Below, piece after piece: positions 1 to 22,450 of a stretch of 32,779 nt of DNA. This DNA is from Opitutia bacterium (GTDB taxonomy: Bacteria > Verrucomicrobiota > Verrucomicrobiia > Opitutales > Opitutaceae). Both the position numbers and the translations under genes were made by a program. The stretch is from assembly GCA_003153035.1 (NCBI GenBank), contig PMBT01000126.1, positions 1-32,779 on the forward strand, written 5' to 3'. Below the pieces are notes generated by a model. It was not told the DNA's origin and searched no databases. It worked only from the letters and a program-made list of their open reading frames with translations. How positions within the stretch are numbered: position 1 is the stretch's first letter; each line of letters starts with the position of its first letter.

Positions 1-91
1 CAAAGACTTGTGGTTGGCTGATCCCGGAGAGATAGTCTGTTCCGACATCAACCAACCGGCATTCCCATACCTCTGCCGTCCAATTCCGCCC

Positions 92-517
92 GTGATCCTT
101 TCGCCAAATCCGCCGCCCCCGGAGACCCCCAAGAAGATCGTCGTCGTTGAAGACGACTCGGCCATGCTCGACATGATAACGACGGCCCTCCGGAGCATCG
201 GCTATGAAGTCCTCCCATTCACCGAGCCGCTCGAGGCGCTGGATTGGCTGAGCCATGCGCAGTGGGGCGTCGATCTGATTATCACCGACATCATGATGCC
301 GGAAACGAATGGCCTGGCTCTCGTCAAGACGATTCGGGCCAAGGCTGGGCCCGTCGCGATTCTTCTGGTGAGCGCCTGGCTGACCGACGAGGCCCTCTGG
401 GGCGATGGGCAGGAAGACCTCCCGTTTCTTGCGAAACCGTTTTCGCTGCCCGCCCTCTTTGAAGCAGTGGAAGGTGCGATGGCGCGACATCCACGCAACA
501 CGCCTGGCTCGGCCTGA
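92..517 (+). CDS. Response regulator, receiver domain only
   Basis: This is a CheY-like receiver domain with no output domain. Counting from the first upstream TTG (position 8), the acidic pair is D49/D50, the phospho-acceptor is D94 in the TDIMMP strand end, the switch Ser is S122 in LLVSAW, and the conserved Lys is K143 in the AKPF turn. All key residues are present, so it should be phosphorylatable. The frame is open to the left edge of the window, so a longer protein with a C-terminal receiver cannot be excluded. The GTG at 92 is preferred because it starts 16 residues before the first beta strand and the upstream residues are not domain-like. No clear Shine-Dalgarno (SD) sequence is seen. 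It ends 21 nt before the pseudo-M50/cNMP gene on the same strand, which suggests co-transcription. The cognate kinase is not in the window. Confidence 0.8.
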   Translation: MILSPNPPPPETPKKIVVVEDDSAMLDMITTALRSIGYEVLPFTEPLEALDWLSHAQWGVDLIITDIMMPETNGLALVKTIRAKAGPVAILLVSAWLTDEALWGDGQEDLPFLAKPFSLPALFEAVEGAMARHPRNTPGSA

Positions 518-538: not shown

Positions 539-2503
539 ATGGACCTGCAGCTCCTGTTCACCGCGGAAAGACTCCAGCTGAATCCCCTGCTCACCAAAGG
601 AGCGGTACGGAAGGGCCGGTACACGGTCAAAACGATCGATACCGGAGGCTATCTGACGATTGACGAATTGCAATGGCATGTGCTGGCCGCCTTCAACAAG
701 CCCAAGACGGTGCCGGACGTGCTGCAATTTCTCATCACGGAGCGGATCTGCCCAGCCCTGCATGATTTCTACGAGCTGATCATCAAGGCGAATCGCGCCG
801 GCGTGCTGCAAACGGCGCCCAGCCCGGCCAAGCAGGTTACCCCGCTGGATTGGAAACTTGGCTTTCCGCCCAAGTTTGCCTGCTGGTTGGGGGCAATGCT
901 GCTGGCCGCCGCGCTGCTGACAATTGGGATCCGGCCACCGCGTTTGCCCCCCGGTACCTTGACTGAGATTCTGTTGACTCTCCTCGCCGGTTATCTCGGC
1001 ACCGCGGTCGCGGTCAGCTTGGGGACCATTCTCAGCGCCTCGGTTCTGCACTCCGCGGGCGGGGATGCTTCCCGGCCCCATCTCAGCTGGTCCTGGGGGC
1101 TGCCGCGATTTAATCTCGACCTGCGGGATTCCCTGATCGTGGACGCCTGCGCCCAGCGGGCCATTCAGCTCGTCCGATCGTCGCCCTTGGGCCTGCTGGT
1201 TATCGGCCTCTGTGTCTGGCAGCCGCAGGCTGCGCTGCTGCCGACCGTCCTTTTCGCTCTGCTCGTGCGCCCCATCTTCGGCGGGCCGGTCAGTCACCCA
1301 ATCAATGCAGGCTTGGGAAGGCCGGTACTCGACACTTCCAGCCGCCTGCTATTCCCCGCCAACCGGAACTGGGCTGGTCTGTGGCGCACGGCCCGGCTAC
1401 AATTCGATCTGCCGGTGGTGATTACCCGGCTGGTCTGGGGCTTCCTCTGGACTGGAGGGATCACCCTGCTCGGAAGCCAGATCGCGGGCGTACCAATTAG
1501 AGAGATGATCATCGATCGGCACTTCTGGAGAGTCTTCGCGGTGGTTTTTGCGATCGCCGCGGCCATCCCGACCAGCGTGTTTGCTTTCGTCGCGACGGCG
1601 GAGAGCCTGCGGGAGCCGATTCGCAAGATCAAGAGACTCTGGCGCCTCCGCCAATTGCGCAAGCGGGCGGTTTTTCAGCCGGTCACCATGAAGACGATCA
1701 CCGGCACCTTGGCGGCCTCACCTATCTGCCAGCAGTTGCCGGCTGACCGGCGCCGGGCACTGGCCGATGCGGTAAACGTGGTCACTCTTCCTCGCGGAAA
1801 TCTCTTGGCCGACTTCAACAAGCCGGCCTCCGAAATTTATATTATCGTCAGCGGCGCGGTTGACGTCTTTCGGCGCGACCACAAAGGGCGACTTCAGCGC
1901 GTGTGGCAGGCGATTGAGGGCGACATCGTTGGCGCGGAGGAGCTGGTTGAACCCCGCCCATTGGGTTGGAAACTCAAGACGCGCACCCCGGTGATCGCCC
2001 TGCGGGTGCCGCGGGCAGTTTTTGAAAAGGAGATCGTTGCCCGGATGGGCTCTGAGGCCGCCCAGGCGCTGATCCATCGCGTGCCTTTCCTCCGTCAGAA
2101 CCATCTTTGCCGTAACTGGCATCCGCAGGCGATCAGCCGCTTCGCGGGCATTTCCCGGTTGGTGACTTATGCCGCCGGAAACGAGGTGCTGATCGAGAAG
2201 CATGACAGCCAGGGACTGTTCTTCATCTATGAGGGGCTGGCTGAGGTCTCGAGGCAGAAGCGCCGCCTTTCCCGGCTGGGCATCGGAGGCTTCATTGGTG
2301 AAATCGGCTTGCTGCAAAACAGCGCCTCCACTGCCACGGTCGTCGCCAACGGTCCGCTCTCCTGCCTGGCCATCGACAAGATGGTGTTCTTCCGCTTTCT
2401 CACCCAAAACTACGAAGTGGGCCTGGAGGTGGAGCGTCTGAGTTCGCAACGACTGGGCAGGCCCGTCTTTCCTCTCCATCCCGGCTCCTTCGAGGTCCGT
2501 TGA
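539..2503 (+). CDS. Membrane protein: PqqD-like N-terminus, degenerate M50 (site-2 protease-like) core, two cNMP-binding folds
   Basis: This is a 654-aa protein. Residues about 1-95 resemble the small PqqD/winged-helix domain that precedes the core of peptide-maturation M50 proteases. Residues about 112-354 hold roughly five hydrophobic segments (112-130, 142-170, 217-247, 293-318, 332-354). Their order recalls M50 metallopeptidases, but the position expected for HExxH reads SASVLHSAGGD and the later Asp-Gly motif reads RPIFGGPV, so no zinc site is visible. Residues about 391-500 and 515-625 are two cyclic-nucleotide-binding beta-barrels; the second has GEIGLLQ followed by STATV. The phosphate-binding Arg of that cassette is missing, so cAMP/cGMP binding is doubtful. 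It starts 21 nt after the response regulator and is followed by a subtilase gene. The M50 relationship is inferred from architecture; the cNMP folds are more secure. It probably acts in the inner membrane as a regulatory or adaptor protein. Confidence 0.7.
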   Translation: MDLQLLFTAERLQLNPLLTKGAVRKGRYTVKTIDTGGYLTIDELQWHVLAAFNKPKTVPDVLQFLITERICPALHDFYELIIKANRAGVLQTAPSPAKQVTPLDWKLGFPPKFACWLGAMLLAAALLTIGIRPPRLPPGTLTEILLTLLAGYLGTAVAVSLGTILSASVLHSAGGDASRPHLSWSWGLPRFNLDLRDSLIVDACAQRAIQLVRSSPLGLLVIGLCVWQPQAALLPTVLFALLVRPIFGGPVSHPINAGLGRPVLDTSSRLLFPANRNWAGLWRTARLQFDLPVVITRLVWGFLWTGGITLLGSQIAGVPIREMIIDRHFWRVFAVVFAIAAAIPTSVFAFVATAESLREPIRKIKRLWRLRQLRKRAVFQPVTMKTITGTLAASPICQQLPADRRRALADAVNVVTLPRGNLLADFNKPASEIYIIVSGAVDVFRRDHKGRLQRVWQAIEGDIVGAEELVEPRPLGWKLKTRTPVIALRVPRAVFEKEIVARMGSEAAQALIHRVPFLRQNHLCRNWHPQAISRFAGISRLVTYAAGNEVLIEKHDSQGLFFIYEGLAEVSRQKRRLSRLGIGGFIGEIGLLQNSASTATVVANGPLSCLAIDKMVFFRFLTQNYEVGLEVERLSSQRLGRPVFPLHPGSFEVR

Positions 2504-2657: not shown

Positions 2658-4313
2658 ATGCCAACGAGACCCTCCTCTGTTCTGCCGCTGGCCGGGGTGT
2701 GCCTTGCCACCGTGCTTCTTCTGCTTTGGCTGGTGGGAAGGGACTGGGTGCGGCCCGCGACCGTACCGACGCCGCCAGCAGCCAGTGGGCGGCCGACCGT
2801 GGCCAGCGCGGCAGCCGCCACGGCTCGACCGACCGCGCCAGACGTCCGGCCAAATCTGGCGGGGCGTCCGATCCTGAAATACCTTCAATCGACGTTCGAT
2901 CGGCCGGGCGTCCGGTCTCACGAAGCCGTGCTGACTTTTGCAAATGCCGAAGCCTACCGGAAGTTCCTCGCTCGCGCCAACCAGTCGGGCCTGACCGTTC
3001 TCGCACAGTTGGATGCACTTCTGGCCGTACGGGTGCGCTATGATTCACTCACTGATTTGCAGGCGGACCTGCTGGGAAATGTCCCGGATTTCTCCGAGGT
3101 CGGAGCCAATTTTTTCATTAATATTCCCCAGACACCGGCAAAGGAGGACCGGGCGGCAGTGAATCTGGTGCCGCTGGGCGACAGACTGCGCCTCTTCCTC
3201 GGCGTGACCGGCGACTATAGCCAGTGGGGGAGCGGGGTGACCATCGCGGTGCTCGACAGTGGCGTCGCCGCGGACAACACCTTTGGGCAAGGGCGGGTGC
3301 AATACCTCGACGTCGGGCTCGGCACCGCCGCCGGCACCGGAACAGAGGATGGGCACGGCACCGCGGTGGCTGCGCTGGCCGCCGGGATGGCGCCAGACGC
3401 CTCTGGCGTTGCTCCGGCTGCCAGCATTCTCAGCATTCGGATCACTGACGCAAACGCCCAAAGCGATGTTTTCACCCTTTCAGAGGCAATCGTTGCGGCA
3501 GTCGACGCCGGCGCGCAGATCGTAAACATCAGCCTGGGCGGCTACGAAACCGACAGCCTGCTGGCCAACGCGATCAGTTATGCGAGCCAGCGCGGTGTCG
3601 TCATTGTGGCCTCAGCCGGCAATGACCAGGCTGCCCAGCTCACCTGGCCGGCGGCTGACCCACGAGTGGTGTCGGTGGGTGCCGTCGATGCGCTGGAGCA
3701 ACAGGCGACGTTCTCCAACGCAGGGGCACAGCTGCAGATCACCGCGCCTGGCTACGGCGTCCAGACCGCCTGGCTGAACGGCCAGCGCGTTTATTTCGAC
3801 GGCACATCGGCCAGCGCGCCCATCGTCGCCGGGGCGATTGCTGCGATCATGTCGACGAGTCCCGGCGTGAATGCGACCCAGGCCTGGCAAGTGCTTCAGC
3901 AGTATGCCAGCGACGGTGGCGCCCCGGGGCCCGATGCCGACTATGGCAACGGCGTCCTCAATCTCGGATGGGCCATGGCCCGGAACGACCCCACCCGAAT
4001 CGATACCGCGATCGCCAGCAACTACTATGACAGCGCCACGGGGCAGATGGAGTTCGTGGTGCAGAACCGCAGCGGGCAAAGCGTCAGCGGCCTCGTGCTG
4101 AACATTGATGCGGGGGGCACCACCAGCAACTACTCAATCCCCATACTGACTCCAGGCGCCATCTCGGTGGTCAAGCTGCCGGTTGACCAAAACCAGCTCG
4201 CCGCCTCTGGCGGTATCGTCTTCCGCACGCAGCTGATCAATCCCCCGGGCATCGTCGACCAGGTCCCGGCAAACAACCGCCGGACCAGCTCACTGACGCC
4301 GCCGTCGAAGTGA
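2658..4313 (+). CDS. Membrane-anchored or secreted S8 family serine peptidase (subtilase)
   Basis: This is a 551-aa subtilisin-like protease. Residues 8-26 form a hydrophobic signal/anchor, followed by a Pro/Ala-rich linker to about 68. Residues about 70-175 look like a propeptide. The catalytic domain spans about 185-440 with D200 (AVLDSG), H233 (DGHGTA), oxyanion Asn N322 (ASAGND) and S384 (GTSASAP), so the full triad is present. The C-terminal ~100 residues form a beta-rich domain that resembles a CARDB-type adhesion module and ends with VPANNRR. No SD is evident before the ATG. It lies 154 nt after the pseudo-M50/cNMP gene on the same strand, so a joint role in processing exported peptides or proteins is plausible but unproven. 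The substrate cannot be told from sequence. Confidence 0.9.
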   Translation: MPTRPSSVLPLAGVCLATVLLLLWLVGRDWVRPATVPTPPAASGRPTVASAAAATARPTAPDVRPNLAGRPILKYLQSTFDRPGVRSHEAVLTFANAEAYRKFLARANQSGLTVLAQLDALLAVRVRYDSLTDLQADLLGNVPDFSEVGANFFINIPQTPAKEDRAAVNLVPLGDRLRLFLGVTGDYSQWGSGVTIAVLDSGVAADNTFGQGRVQYLDVGLGTAAGTGTEDGHGTAVAALAAGMAPDASGVAPAASILSIRITDANAQSDVFTLSEAIVAAVDAGAQIVNISLGGYETDSLLANAISYASQRGVVIVASAGNDQAAQLTWPAADPRVVSVGAVDALEQQATFSNAGAQLQITAPGYGVQTAWLNGQRVYFDGTSASAPIVAGAIAAIMSTSPGVNATQAWQVLQQYASDGGAPGPDADYGNGVLNLGWAMARNDPTRIDTAIASNYYDSATGQMEFVVQNRSGQSVSGLVLNIDAGGTTSNYSIPILTPGAISVVKLPVDQNQLAASGGIVFRTQLINPPGIVDQVPANNRRTSSLTPPSK

Positions 4314-16203: not shown

Positions 16204-17109
16204 ATGCTATCTGATCGATCCTACATGCGGACTGCTGAGAGCCCGTTCACCTTTGATCCGGTGAAATGGCTGATGGGGGTCTTTGCCTCGCTCTTCGTGG
16301 TGCAGCTTGTCTGGGAGAGATGGTTGCTCAAAGGCACGGCCTATTATGGCTGGTTCGGACTCTCCGCCGACGCGGTGCTGCACGGGCGCAAGGTGTGGAC
16401 ACTGCTCACCTACAATTTCCTGCAAAATGTCGCTGGTGACACGGCGGGAGTCTTTGTCCTGATTTTCAATCTTCTAGGACTGTATTTCTTCGGTGGCGCG
16501 GTGCGCGAGCTGGTCGGCACACGGCGATTCGCCTGGCTCTACGCGACCTTTGTCGCCGCCGGCGCGGCGGCCTGGTGCGCCGCCTCCGCCCTGGGCGTCG
16601 ACTGGCTGCTCCTGGGGCCATCGGTCACCATCGCGGGTCTCTTCGCGCTGTACTGCTGCTATCACGCCAATGAGCCGATGACGTTTCTCGCCTTCTTTAT
16701 CATTCCGGTGACGGCGAAGCCGAAAATCTTCTGCTGGGTCTGGGTGGCGCTCGATCTGGCCGGCTTCCTATTTTATGAAATGATGGGCCGTCCCTCCCCT
16801 TGGTGGAACGGACACCTCGCCAACCTCGTGGCCATGTCCGCGGCCTACGGCTATTACCGTCTGGCCGGCCGGGTCGACCCGTTCGGCGGGCCATCGTCCT
16901 CCGGGATTGCCCTGCCCGGCTGGCTCCGCCGCTGGAAAAGATCCGCCGCTCCCGCTCCGCGCTTTAGAGTGAATCTCTCCAATCGTGACGACCTGCGGGC
17001 GGAGGTGGACCGCATTCTCGACAAGATCAACAGCCAGGGCTTCGGCGCGCTGACCGCCGAGGAAAAGCGCCTGCTCGACGAGGCGCGCGACCTTCTGAGT
17101 CGCCACTGA
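16204..17109 (+). CDS. Rhomboid-fold membrane protein with a variant active site and C-terminal helical tail
   Basis: This is a 301-aa integral membrane protein with about six hydrophobic helices between residues 22 and 220. The rhomboid pattern is clear: WTLLTYNFLQ at about 65-74, LFFGGAVRELVGTRRF-like (94-109), a Ser in LLGPSVTIAG (S140) and a His in WNGHLANLV (H204), spaced as in rhomboid Ser-His dyads. The usual GxSG motif is GPSV, so the Gly after the Ser is replaced and activity is uncertain. The C-terminal ~35 residues (VDRILDKI, LTAEEKRLLDEA) form a soluble helical tail seen in many rhomboid-family proteins. The start is ATG at 16204, or ATG 16225. glnE begins 10 nt after its stop, so the two are probably co-transcribed. 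Confidence 0.8.
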   Translation: MLSDRSYMRTAESPFTFDPVKWLMGVFASLFVVQLVWERWLLKGTAYYGWFGLSADAVLHGRKVWTLLTYNFLQNVAGDTAGVFVLIFNLLGLYFFGGAVRELVGTRRFAWLYATFVAAGAAAWCAASALGVDWLLLGPSVTIAGLFALYCCYHANEPMTFLAFFIIPVTAKPKIFCWVWVALDLAGFLFYEMMGRPSPWWNGHLANLVAMSAAYGYYRLAGRVDPFGGPSSSGIALPGWLRRWKRSAAPAPRFRVNLSNRDDLRAEVDRILDKINSQGFGALTAEEKRLLDEARDLLSRH

Positions 17110-17118
17110 ATTTGCCAC

Positions 17119-19977
17119 GTGAGCGCGCCCGCCGGTCACGCCTTGTCCGGGAGATTCCGCGCATTGCTGCGCCAGGATCATCCCGCCTGGGATGCCCGGG
17201 CGCTTCCGCCCGACGCGTGGCTGCGCCTCGAGCGCCTGGCCGACGCCAGCCCGCTGTACGCCCGCCTGCTGCTCCGGCATCCCGACTACGCGCTGTGGCT
17301 CGAACAGCCGCAGAACCGCGAGGCCCATTTCCGGTACCAGGCGCTGCTCAACGAATGGCGCACCTGCACCGCCGCAGTTCCGCCAGAAGAGCTGGCGCGC
17401 GATGACACCTGTTTGAGCCTGCTGCGCCGCTGGCGACGGAAGATGGCCCTGCGCATCGCCTATCGCGATGTCAACGGCCTCGCGTCCACCCCGGTTACGG
17501 TCGGGGAGCTGACGCGCCTGGGCGAGTTCTGCCTGCGCGAGTGCTGGGGCGTCGCCGCCAGACAGTGGACCCGCCGCTATGGCGAGCCGTGGGATGAGGA
17601 GGCCGCGAAGCCCGCGCGCTTCTGCGTGCTCGGTCTGGGCAAGCTTGGTGGACAGGAGCTCAATTTCTCCTCCGACATTGATCTCATCTATGTCTACGAG
17701 GGCGAGGGTCACTGCCGGAAGGACGGGCTGCCCGGCGTCTTCAGCAACGTTGAATTCTTCACCAAGGTGGCCGAAACCACCACCGGCCTGCTCCAGGCCC
17801 AGACCCCCGACGGCTTTTTGTTTCGCGTTGACGTCCGCCTACGTCCCGAGGGCGCGTTCGGTCCGCTGGTCCGCTCGCTCGCCAGCCTCGAGAATTACTA
17901 CGCCGCCGCCGGCCAGACCTGGGAGCGCCTGGCGCTCATCAAGGCGCGGCCGGTCGCCGGCGATCTCACGCTCGGGGCGGAATTGCTGGAGAGCCTGCAG
18001 GCGTTCCGGTATCCGCGCCATCCGCCGCCTTCGCTGCTGGCCGAGGTGGCCGCGATGAAAAGCCGAACCGAGCAGGAGGTCGTCGGCGCCCAGACCCTAG
18101 CGCGCGACGTGAAATCCGGCCATGGCGGTATCCGCGAGATCGAGTTCATCGTGCAGGCCTTCCAGCTCCTCCATGCCGGGCGGTATCCCTTTCTCCAGAC
18201 GCATGCGACCACCGCCGCCCTGGACCAGCTTGTGCGCTACGGACTAATGCACCCGGGGGAGGCGGAGTTCCTCGGTGAGGCCTACTGGTTCCTCCGCCGG
18301 GTCGAGCACGCGATCCAGATGCGCGAGGAGCATCAGACGCACGCCCTGCCGGCCGACGCCGCCGAGGTGGCCGCGATTACCCGCACCCTCGGGTTCTCAT
18401 CGGTTGGCACTTTCCAGCACCAGCTCAAGGGCGTGCGCACGCGGGTGCGCCGCATCTACGAGGGGCTGTTCCGCCGCGAGGCCGGCGACCGCGCGTTTCA
18501 GGACTGGTGGAAGTTCTTCACCTCCGCCCGCACGCCACCGCAGGTCGAGGAGCGCGTGCGTCGTTGGCTCGGCCCCGTGACCGGCGCCGCGGACGAGCTA
18601 CGCCGCTTCGTGTGTGGTGACCACGGGCATCAAGTGAACCGTGAACTGGTCGTCCGGTTTCAGCATCTGGTCGACGTCCTCGACGAAACCCTGCCAAAAC
18701 TCGCCCAGCCGGTGCCGACTTTGCGACGGATCGCGCGCTTTGCCGAGCGTTATGGCACACGCCAGCAGTTCTTCAACGGTTGCGCCGCGAATCCGCAGTT
18801 CTTCCGGGTGCTGGCGCTCCTGTTCGACCGCAGCACCTTTACCTTCGAGCTGCTCGCCGCTCATCCCGAGATTGCCGAGGAGGTCCTGCGGCCGGAGGTG
18901 TTGCGCAAGCGCAAGGACGCGACGGCCCTGGCCGGGGACCTCGCCGCCGGCCCCGCCGGCGAGGGCCATGCCGACTGGCTGTGGCTGTACGTAAAAGCGG
19001 AGCAGGTGCGTTATGCCGTCGGCGAACTCCTTGGATACCTGGACGTCGAGGAGGTGGAGGCCAGCCTTTCGCTGCTGGCCGATGCGGTGCTGAAGCAGGT
19101 GCTGCGACAGCTCGACCCGGAGCAGAAACTCTTGCTGGTGGCGCTGGGCAAATACGGCGGGTCCGAACTGACCTTCGGGTCCGACCTCGACCTCCTGTGC
19201 GTCGCCCCGGATGCCGACGCGGCGGCACTGGAACCCGTGGTCCGCGCGCTGCAACGGCTGATGCGCCATGGCGGGCCGCTCGGCGCGATCTTCGAGGTTG
19301 ACCTCCGCCTGCGGCCGCACGGCGACGCCGGACCGTTCGTCACCACTCCCGCGGTGCTCCGCGCCTACCATGCGAGCGGTTCGGCGCAGGCTTGGGAGCG
19401 CCAGTTGCTCACCCGGGCACGGGTCGTGGTCGGAGCCCCGGAACCAGCGGCGGAATTCCAGGCTGTCGTCGCCGACCTGCTCTATCGCGCCCCGCTGACC
19501 GGGCCCGATGCGGCGATCATGTGGGCGATGCGGAGCCGGATCGAAAAAGAGCGCGACGCGGTGTTGCCACCGGAACGCGCTTTCAAGACCGGCTCCGGCG
19601 GGTTGGTGGACTTCGAGTTTCTCGTGCAACTGCTCCAACTCCGCCATGGGACCGCCCTGCCGGCGCTCCGCCAGCCCGGCACCCGCCGGGGCTTGCGCGC
19701 CCTGGCTGCCGCCAGCCTCATCCCGGACGAAATGGGCAAACGATTGCTGGCCAACTACGATTTTCTTAAGCGAATTGAGATTCTGCTCAGGGGTGATGCC
19801 AATCGGGCAGTCAGCGTCCTCGCCGCTTCTGCTGAGGAGCGCGCTTCCCTTGCCCGTTGGTTGGGGTTTGCCAGCGAGTCGGTTTTCTGGGCGGAATACA
19901 CGCGGCAGCTCGCGGAAACCCGCCGGATGGTGCTCTCCTTGCTCCCGCCGGGAGCCCAATCACAGCAAGAACCTTGA
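17119..19977 (+). CDS. glnE: Bifunctional glutamine synthetase adenylyltransferase / adenylyl-removing enzyme
   Basis: This 952-aa protein has the usual GlnE length. It adds AMP to, and removes AMP from, glutamine synthetase to adjust nitrogen assimilation. There are two nucleotidyltransferase domains. The N-terminal adenylyl-removase has GLGKLGGQELNFSSDIDL (about 172-189, D186 and D188). The C-terminal adenylyltransferase has ALGKYGGSELTFGSDLDLL (675-693, D689 and D691). Both metal-binding Asp pairs are intact, as is the DVRLRPEG/DLRLRPHG motif in each half and the AYRDVNGLAS motif near 114. The start is GTG at 17121-in-frame 17119, 10 nt after the rhomboid stop. glnB and glnA are not in the window, so PII control is only inferred from the family. 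Confidence 0.97.
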   Translation: MSAPAGHALSGRFRALLRQDHPAWDARALPPDAWLRLERLADASPLYARLLLRHPDYALWLEQPQNREAHFRYQALLNEWRTCTAAVPPEELARDDTCLSLLRRWRRKMALRIAYRDVNGLASTPVTVGELTRLGEFCLRECWGVAARQWTRRYGEPWDEEAAKPARFCVLGLGKLGGQELNFSSDIDLIYVYEGEGHCRKDGLPGVFSNVEFFTKVAETTTGLLQAQTPDGFLFRVDVRLRPEGAFGPLVRSLASLENYYAAAGQTWERLALIKARPVAGDLTLGAELLESLQAFRYPRHPPPSLLAEVAAMKSRTEQEVVGAQTLARDVKSGHGGIREIEFIVQAFQLLHAGRYPFLQTHATTAALDQLVRYGLMHPGEAEFLGEAYWFLRRVEHAIQMREEHQTHALPADAAEVAAITRTLGFSSVGTFQHQLKGVRTRVRRIYEGLFRREAGDRAFQDWWKFFTSARTPPQVEERVRRWLGPVTGAADELRRFVCGDHGHQVNRELVVRFQHLVDVLDETLPKLAQPVPTLRRIARFAERYGTRQQFFNGCAANPQFFRVLALLFDRSTFTFELLAAHPEIAEEVLRPEVLRKRKDATALAGDLAAGPAGEGHADWLWLYVKAEQVRYAVGELLGYLDVEEVEASLSLLADAVLKQVLRQLDPEQKLLLVALGKYGGSELTFGSDLDLLCVAPDADAAALEPVVRALQRLMRHGGPLGAIFEVDLRLRPHGDAGPFVTTPAVLRAYHASGSAQAWERQLLTRARVVVGAPEPAAEFQAVVADLLYRAPLTGPDAAIMWAMRSRIEKERDAVLPPERAFKTGSGGLVDFEFLVQLLQLRHGTALPALRQPGTRRGLRALAAASLIPDEMGKRLLANYDFLKRIEILLRGDANRAVSVLAASAEERASLARWLGFASESVFWAEYTRQLAETRRMVLSLLPPGAQSQQEP

Positions 19978-20206: not shown

Positions 20207-22450
20207 ATGATGTCCTCTTTCCAGTCCGTTTCGCGGTTGTACCGTACGGCCGTTGTCAGCGCCATCTTCCTGGCCCTTCTGACCGCCGCCCGGGCCATGC
20301 CGGAACGCAATTTTGAGACCACCCGCGCCCGCGCCACCGAGGTGAGCACGATGGTCGACCTGCTCGAGCACTTCAATTTCAACCACGAAGCGGTCGACCG
20401 CCAGCAGAAGCCGGAACTGGGCCACGACCTCATTCACGATTTCATGGCCAATCTCGATCCCCAGCGGCTCTTCTACCTTGCCACCGACCAGGAAGTCTTC
20501 ACCGAGCGTTACGCTCCCGGCCTTTATTACAACCTCCGGACCCTCGGCAAACTCGACGCCCCGTTCGACATTTACGTCATGTTCGAGAAACGGGTCGACC
20601 AGCGCGTCACCTGGATCTTCGATGAACTGAAGAAGGATTTCGATTTCACGGCGCACGAGTCCTATCCGTACGACCGCTCCAAGGGCGTCTGGCCGGCGAC
20701 GAAAGCCGAGGCCGATGACCTCTGGCGCCGCCGCCTCAAGTTCGAGCTCCTGCAGGAGATCATCAACAAGAAGACTCCCGAGGAGGCCAAGCAGACGGTT
20801 CGCAAACACTATGAGCGCATGCTCAAGAACCTGGCCGATATCGAAACGGATGATGTCACCGAGATGTTCCTGACTTGCCTCGCCGGCCTATACGATCCCC
20901 ATTCCAGCTATCTTTCCCCCGAGAGCTTCGAGGACTTCGGAATCCAGATGCGGCTCTCCCTGGTCGGCATCGGCGCGCTGCTGGGATTTGAGGACAACGA
21001 ATGCGTGGTCAAGGAGCTCATTCCCGGCGGCCCGGCCGACCTGGGCAAGCAACTGCACCCGAACGACAAGATCATCGCCGTGGCGGCTGACAACGGTGAG
21101 CCCATCGACGTCATCGGCATGAAGCTGCGCAAGGTCGTCGATCTCATCCGCGGCCACAAGGACACGAAGGTGAAGCTCACCGTCATCCCTGCGGGCGTGA
21201 CCGACGGTTCCGTGCGCAAGGAGATCACGATTGTCCGCGACGTCGTCAAACTGAATTCTGCCCGCGCCCGCGCCGCCATCTACCAGGTGCCGGGAGGCAA
21301 CGGAGAAGCGGTCCCGATGGGCGTCATCACCCTGCCATCATTCTATGGTCTCTCCGATGAGGAAGAGAATCCGGGCAGTGAAGAGCGCACCAGCGCCACC
21401 AAGGACGTCGCCGAGCTCATCAACCGCCTCGATGCCGCCGGGATCAAGGCCCTCGTGCTTGACCTGCGCAACAACGGCGGGGGCCTGCTATCCGAGGCCA
21501 TCGATCTGACGGGCCTTTTTATCAACAAGGGCCCGGTGGTGCAGGTAAAGTCCGTGACCGGCGAGATTCAGGTCGACCGCGACGAGGACACCCAGATCCG
21601 CTATACCGGCCCGCTGGCCGTGCTCGTGTCGCGGTTCAGCGCCTCGGCCTCCGAAATCGTCGCCGGCGCCCTGCAGAATTACGGCCGCGCGATCATCATC
21701 GGCGACCAGTCTACTCATGGCAAGGGCTCGGTCCAGACCATCGTGGAAATGAAGAACATCAGCCGCCTGCTCGCGCACCTCCCGGACAAGACCGGCGCGG
21801 CCCGGCTCACCATCCAGAAGTTCTACCTGCCCAATGGCGCCTCCACGCAGACCAAAGGAGTCATCCCCGACATCGTCCTGCCTTCCATCGACGAATACAT
21901 GCAGGTGGGCGAATCCAATCTCCCGCACGCCCTGATTTGGGACGAGATTCCGTCTACGACCTTCAACGGTCACCCGCTCGAACAGAAGATCCTCGCCCCC
22001 CTGCGCGCCGCGAGCCAGTCCCGCCTCGAGAAGCTGGAGGAGTTTGCCTACCTCAAGAAGAACATCGACTGGTTCAAGGAGAAGCAGGAGCGGAAGGACA
22101 TCTCACTCAACCTCGAGGAACGCCTCCGCCAGAAGGGAATTGATGATGCGTTCAAGAAGGCCATGGAGGCGGAAAAGGGCACGCTCGCGAAGAACGACTT
22201 TCCGTGCACCGAGATCACCATCGTGCCCCCACCGCCCAAACCCGTGAAGGCCGAGAAGAAAGCTGACGACGCGGGCGCTGAGGAGGACGATTTGCTCAGC
22301 ACCGACGAAGATCCCGGCGTTGTGAAAATGGACATCCCGCTGCGCGAAAGTCTGCGCGTGCTGTCCGACACGCTCGCCCTGTCGAAGAATCCGCAGTGTT
22401 GGGCCGACGGCAACGCCCCGCTCACCGTGCAGATTTCGAAGAACGGCTGA
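20207..22450 (+). CDS. prc: Periplasmic tail-specific (carboxy-terminal processing) protease, S41 family
   Basis: This 747-aa Tsp/Prc-type protease degrades periplasmic proteins from their C-termini. Residues 1-30 are a signal peptide (AVVSAIFLALLTAARA). A helical N-terminal region is followed by YDPHSSYLSPESFEDF (about 228-243), then a PDZ domain to about 345, then the S41 catalytic domain. The Ser lies in FSASASEI (478-483, S480 by alignment to E. coli Prc) and the Lys is K506 in THGKGSVQ. The substrate loop GGGLLSEAIDLTGLF is present. The C-terminal ~200 residues are the long helical tail of the Prc subfamily with a charged, coiled segment and an acidic stretch (EEDDLLSTDEDPG). A hairpin follows the stop. 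Confidence 0.94.
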   Translation: MMSSFQSVSRLYRTAVVSAIFLALLTAARAMPERNFETTRARATEVSTMVDLLEHFNFNHEAVDRQQKPELGHDLIHDFMANLDPQRLFYLATDQEVFTERYAPGLYYNLRTLGKLDAPFDIYVMFEKRVDQRVTWIFDELKKDFDFTAHESYPYDRSKGVWPATKAEADDLWRRRLKFELLQEIINKKTPEEAKQTVRKHYERMLKNLADIETDDVTEMFLTCLAGLYDPHSSYLSPESFEDFGIQMRLSLVGIGALLGFEDNECVVKELIPGGPADLGKQLHPNDKIIAVAADNGEPIDVIGMKLRKVVDLIRGHKDTKVKLTVIPAGVTDGSVRKEITIVRDVVKLNSARARAAIYQVPGGNGEAVPMGVITLPSFYGLSDEEENPGSEERTSATKDVAELINRLDAAGIKALVLDLRNNGGGLLSEAIDLTGLFINKGPVVQVKSVTGEIQVDRDEDTQIRYTGPLAVLVSRFSASASEIVAGALQNYGRAIIIGDQSTHGKGSVQTIVEMKNISRLLAHLPDKTGAARLTIQKFYLPNGASTQTKGVIPDIVLPSIDEYMQVGESNLPHALIWDEIPSTTFNGHPLEQKILAPLRAASQSRLEKLEEFAYLKKNIDWFKEKQERKDISLNLEERLRQKGIDDAFKKAMEAEKGTLAKNDFPCTEITIVPPPPKPVKAEKKADDAGAEEDDLLSTDEDPGVVKMDIPLRESLRVLSDTLALSKNPQCWADGNAPLTVQISKNG

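Follow-up and report, generated by a model that had tools for sequence, protein, structure and literature searches.

A family of RRE - pseudo-M50 - CNB - CNB membrane proteins with a conserved phospho-receiver partner in Opitutales suggests an undescribed bacterial signalling adaptor

Introduction

SpoIVFB (M50B) is an active protease that lacks an RRE and ends in a C-terminal CBS domain rather than in a CNB domain. The exporter-type M50 proteins of the PqqD-M50-HlyD kind (for example, L139 and L140) consist of an RRE followed by an M50 core, and TIGR03896 (cyc_nuc_ocin) is a bacteriocin-type transport-associated family with cNMP-type domains. A site-2 protease homologue without HExxH is represented by the plant pseudo-site-2 protease EGY3, for which a non-proteolytic stabilising role has been reported (PMC10978774). 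Bacterial pseudo-site-2 proteases appear to have been hardly studied.

Here, we analyse a gene located in a stretch of 32,779 nucleotides (hereafter, the window) from an Opitutia bacterium. The window forms the first part of a 50.9-kb contig, which belongs to a draft genome of 4.0 Mb that is 86% complete. The RRE - pseudo-M50 - CNB - CNB architecture of its product has no description in Pfam, NCBIfam or the open-access literature that was searched.

Results

The gene and its relatives

The gene and the parts of its product preceding the CNB domains are as follows.

539..2503, + strand: RRE - pseudo-M50 - CNB - CNB membrane protein of 654 aa (ORF; 83 full-length homologues; model pLDDT 88)
539..823, + strand: PqqD-like/RRE domain, residues 1-95 (Foldseek and VIA-align to TigE, TbiB1, ThcOx, MccB and PqqD; hhalign)
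839..1654, + strand: putative degenerate M50-type membrane core, residues 101-372 (hhalign to the active PqqD-M50-HlyD profile; SpoIVFB Z 6.4)
1013..1033, + strand: site of the lost HExxH, residues 159-165 in helix 141-172 (hhalign)
1055..1066, + strand: AGGD, counterpart of the (F)GGEV motif in active relatives, residues 173-176
1271..1288, + strand: site of the lost NPLLRFDGYY, residues 245-250 (hhalign; P245 kept)

The 539-2503 frame is a real gene and not a chance ORF, since it has about 60 colinear homologues within the family, its identity is 59-68% in congeners (26-35% across the family), and its codon-position divergence from a congener (0.25/0.18/0.37) is greatest at third positions. 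The protein is conserved in Opitutales relatives, and the nearest named relatives are Opitutia/Opitutae MAGs. The homologue survey covered Verrucomicrobiota-type relatives, the contig scan with a single-sequence query yielded two congeners only, and the main counts rest on 83 full-length relatives. Genes in the relatives were called crudely, as longest ORFs, so short neighbour genes may have been missed; as the window begins at the contig end, the upstream context was taken from the relatives.

The homologues at L198, L199 and L200 (genomes G172, G163 and G126) are broken into several ORFs or truncated, which reflects either gene decay in some lineages or assembly breakage. Elsewhere in the window lie genes for a rhomboid-family protein (16204-17109), GlnE (17119-19977) and a tail-specific S41 protease (20207-22450); these are ordinary genes, and a link to the 539-2503 gene is not evident.

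An RRE domain joined to a degenerate M50 core

Residues 1-372 were modelled with a pLDDT of 92 and a pTM of 0.85. In VIA-align and Foldseek comparisons, residues ~1-99 of this model matched RRE structures, with TigE at Z 10.7, ThcOx, MccB and MibB at Z ~8, TbiB1, lasso B1 and PqqD at Z 6-7.4, and many RREs at Z 6-8.6. Additionally, the N-terminal domain was aligned by hhalign with the PqqD part of active M50 proteins with a probability of 91%. The modelled structure thus supports a predicted PqqD/RRE fold for residues 1-97. A match of the N-terminal profile within its own genome (E 0.03) corresponded to an unrelated, transporter-like ORF and was discarded.

The model contains about 6 or 7 membrane helices, and the succession of a long helix (141-172), a beta hairpin (178-194) and a further helix (203-227) follows the order of the M50 core. 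No Pfam M50 match was obtained for any of the 42 members examined, the window protein included; the core was missed by plain Pfam, NCBIfam and Foldseek searches and was revealed by profile-profile comparison and VIA-align. As a reference, we used bona fide PqqD-M50-HlyD proteins belonging to the same class, whose motifs include HExxH, FGG[EQ]V-like, P.PYVDAS and NPLLRFDGYY. The family profile aligned colinearly with this active profile from the RRE through the core (hhalign probability 88%, E 3.5e-6), and the addition of six distant members raised the match to a probability of 95% and an E of 4.8e-8, both E-values being those of single comparisons and not of a database search. The membrane part alone (residues 139-262) scored 36-37 bits against the active M50 profile, whereas block-shuffled controls gave 13.4 +/- 2.3 bits (maximum 22.9) and the reversed profile gave 15.

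In these hhalign alignments, VSLGT (159-163) stands opposite HEFAH of the active proteins, and LLVRPIFGGPV opposite their second motif, with the position of the metal-ligand Asp occupied by Pro250; P245 is invariant among 42 sequences. In all 83 full-length relatives, the aligned site lacks HExxH, the sole match to the motif being in the CNB-A of one sequence, which argues for a pseudopeptidase family and not for a single decayed gene. The relatives retain a signature of their own, AGGEV...P.f.vDl.D, as would be expected of a stable pseudopeptidase rather than of a decaying gene. Taken together, the alignments support the view that the membrane core is homologous to the M50 core and predict that it is catalytically dead. 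The preliminary description, which had proposed a non-catalytic M50/site-2-protease-like layout with a PqqD-like N-terminus, is upheld on these points, as well as on the lack of HExxH (it had pointed to SASVLHSAGGD, residues 166-176) and of the later metal-ligand motif; of its "about five" hydrophobic segments, the membrane segments stand and the number does not.

The best solved membrane structure for residues 105-346 was SpoIVFB, a weak match (Z 6.4 and 6.2 for two entries, rmsd 7.2 over 161 residues) with a margin of ~1 over rhodopsins and channels (Z <=5.3), so that it may be counted for the M50 relationship as supporting evidence only. A viral structure library gave no match above noise. 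The structural list also bears on whether the protein is instead a CNB-regulated ion channel or transporter, with a six-helix membrane part followed by cNMP domains and unrelated to peptidases: plant K+ and CNG channels appear in it with the same helices-then-CNB order (Z 4-4.8). We consider a channel very unlikely, given that SpoIVFB ranks higher, that the profile match to active M50 proteins is colinear over both RRE and core, and that the protein begins with an RRE and shows no pore motif.

The genome of the window (G000) holds M50-family genes. A search of this 86% complete genome with an active PqqD-M50-HlyD query gave no match, and an active full-length counterpart of the pseudo-M50 protein is therefore not evident there.

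Two CNB domains and a receiver partner

The C-terminal half of the protein and the gene upstream comprise the following features.

1688..2038, + strand: CNB-A, residues ~384-500, phosphate-binding cassette lost in the window's branch (GDIVGAEELVEPRPLGWKL)
2123..2458, + strand: CNB-B, residues ~529-640, Glu588 conserved, phosphate Arg absent family-wide
8..517, + strand: stand-alone phospho-receiver without output domain (Pfam Response_reg E 1e-17; receiver core ~137-469); its true start codon is uncertain because the window starts at the contig end

Pfam recognised two cNMP_binding stretches (E 4e-24), which agrees with the two cNMP-type barrels noted earlier. The tandem was nearest to PKA regulatory subunits (E 2e-15) in a full-length PDB search that was filled by CNB matches. 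In CNB-B, the Glu is kept in 82 of 84 rows, and the position of the phosphate-contacting Arg is occupied by Ala, Ser, Thr, Pro or Leu, and never by Arg. In CNB-A, 37 members have the canonical cassette (GE...R[TSH]) and it is degenerate in the others. The window protein is among the latter and has neither an intact phosphate-binding cassette in CNB-A nor the phosphate Arg in CNB-B. Class III cyclases were present in 42 of the 43 genomes checked, and therefore a cyclic nucleotide is plausibly available; the same count led us to reject the idea that cyclases are confined to cases with an intact CNB-A cassette.

The receiver ORF stops at 517 and is separated by 21 nt from the ATG of the 539-2503 ORF. 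A receiver gene is located directly upstream in 37 of 83 loci, and 33 of these 37 receivers are stand-alone, mostly with a gap of 6-21 nt. All 33 have an intact acidic pocket together with the phospho-Asp, Ser and Lys, as well as a Trp before beta5 that is both unusual and invariant. The remaining upstream receivers, three RR-GGDEF-EAL and one RR-sigma-54 AAA, stand before cassette-less members outside the main branch. Distances among receivers and among membrane proteins correlate with r = 0.91 in a mirror-tree comparison, a value to which shared species history contributes in part. In the window's branch, the membrane protein has the receiver gene as a conserved partner.

Several loci show other arrangements. 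In another family of the order, a receiver-GGDEF-EAL protein of 701-704 aa precedes the gene (L171:6326-8428, - strand; L172:3150-5261, + strand; L177:6468-8570, - strand), which raises cyclic-di-GMP as a possible link, and at L180:7194-8300 (- strand) a fusion of a receiver with a sigma-54-type AAA domain directly overlaps a distant family member at its start. Genome G195 has two receiver-linked copies ~9 kb apart (L039:1545-3503 and L039:12446-14401, both - strand), and genomes G174, G064 and G016 each have one receiver-linked and one receiver-less copy.

It could be argued that both CNB domains are inert scaffolds and that the receiver is merely co-transcribed and acts elsewhere. The phosphate Arg of CNB-B is missing in all members, the CNB-A cassette is gone in over half of them, and the interaction between receiver and membrane protein is only putative. 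Set against this, 37 members preserve a canonical CNB-A cassette, and the linked receivers, which lack an output domain, have all their phospho residues intact; on balance, we regard inert scaffolds as unlikely.

The receiver and the CNB-A cassette do not occur together

Across 83 relatives, we observed the receiver only in 37, the CNB-A cassette only in 37, neither in nine, and both in none; the window protein belongs to the class with a receiver and without a cassette. This split was first seen in 48 sequences, and it held in 40 more loci that were then fetched; the cassette-less members of another family are accompanied by a receiver protein of another type. When the CNB-A columns were excluded from the tree, receiver presence required six changes and the cassette four. 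Given that a quick method was used for this tree and that its deep branching is poorly supported, we infer the direction of change. Nearly all the counts come from one branch of 35 members, and an independent-pairs test, with one informative pair at most, had no power; in statistical terms, the association is therefore established for no more than two or three evolutionary events. The split is a new observation that rests on those two or three events.

Neighbouring genes

The S8 subtilase encoded 154 nt downstream (2658-4313) has the Asp, His and Ser motifs (IAVLDSGV, DGHGT, GTSASAP) and an N-terminal hydrophobic anchor, and a gene ~75% identical lies in the same place in two congeners. This arrangement would fit a single proteolysis or export system made of receiver, adaptor and S8 protease. 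Such a system is most improbable and is refuted as a general unit: the S8 gene was found downstream in three of the four same-genus loci examined, being missing in the congener L035, and it was absent at all of the ~40 loci outside the genus.

The neighbourhood also bears on the idea that the protein is a non-catalytic part of RiPP maturation or export that binds a leader peptide through its RRE. The RRE fold at the N-terminus, the existence of proteins with the same N-terminal plan fused to HlyD, and a weak match to the double-CNB family TIGR03896 (E 6e-5, far below the cut-off) speak for it. Among the close same-strand neighbours in ~80 loci, recurrent genes for HlyD, ABC or active M50 proteins were not found next to the homologues, nor were recurrent peptide-modifying genes, and one A3-profile match was located ~7 kb away at a single locus; a role in RiPP maturation or export is thus quite improbable. 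Conserved downstream genes were sought among the homologue loci and not found, and no conserved client, peptide precursor or output gene was detected among the close same-strand neighbours. The flanking genes were otherwise non-recurrent, except for four Rpe and four PEGA matches upstream of receiver-less members.

Regarding the gene context given in the preliminary description, the response regulator 21 nt upstream and the membrane-anchored S8 protease that follows are both present at the locus, and the expected linkage to receiver-only response regulators extends to the relatives. The export context and a conserved place for the S8 protease did not hold, so that its joint test of fold and neighbour conservation came out in favour of the M50 relationship and the receiver, and against the S8 gene.

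Discussion

As a tentative explanation, which we find plausible without holding it firmly, the 539-2503 protein would derive from PqqD-M50 peptidases and act as a membrane signalling adaptor without catalysis, its RRE and core holding a client and its CNB switch having had its input shifted from cyclic nucleotide to a receiver. This explanation builds on the observed homology and domain order, the family-wide loss of catalytic motifs, the receiver partner, the loss of the cassette and the split; peptide capture, client holding, receiver docking and the direction of change are the parts that we infer. A client would be captured through one of its peptide segments by the cytosolic RRE, and its membrane segment would be held, uncut, by the pseudo-M50 core. 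The C-terminal CNB pair would act in the cytosol as a switch. Where relatives have the cassette, a cyclic nucleotide on CNB-A would flip this switch; in the window's branch, CNB-A would no longer bind nucleotide, and the co-encoded phospho-receiver would dock on the protein as the input. Against this adaptor explanation we count the weak M50 fold match, the two or three events behind the split, the shared species history in the mirror-tree, the nine members with neither feature, and the lack of a client, precursor or output gene conserved beside the gene.

A broader proposal, possible although rather doubtful, is that pseudo-site-2 proteases have swapped their input, with members that sense a cyclic nucleotide through an intact CNB-A on the one hand and, on the other, a large branch that lost this site and in which a dedicated, co-encoded phospho-receiver docks on the same sensor module; other receivers would have been recruited separately outside this branch.

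The RRE - pseudo-M50 - CNB - CNB family with its receiver hints at a type of signalling adaptor not previously described in bacteria. It permits the comparison of one scaffold combined either with a receiver partner or with an intact nucleotide site, and this comparison could reveal how a signalling protein swaps its input while its body remains unchanged. The family would also be an instance of an RRE domain that occurs apart from any evident peptide-product pathway.

Compared with known systems, TIGR03896 shares cNMP-type domains and matches CNB-B weakly; its score is 22.5 against a cut-off of 161, and the window locus lacks an exporter operon. EGY3 is a eukaryotic plastid protein for which an RRE, CNB domains or a receiver partner have not been described. 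The PqqD-M50-HlyD proteins align colinearly with the window family in GGEV, P.PYVDAS.AW and the helix order; they keep HExxH, NPLLRFDGYY and an HlyD-like C-terminus, whereas both motifs are missing from the window protein, whose C-terminal part consists of two CNB domains. SpoIVFB resembles the window protein in combining an M50-type membrane core with a C-terminal cytosolic regulatory module.
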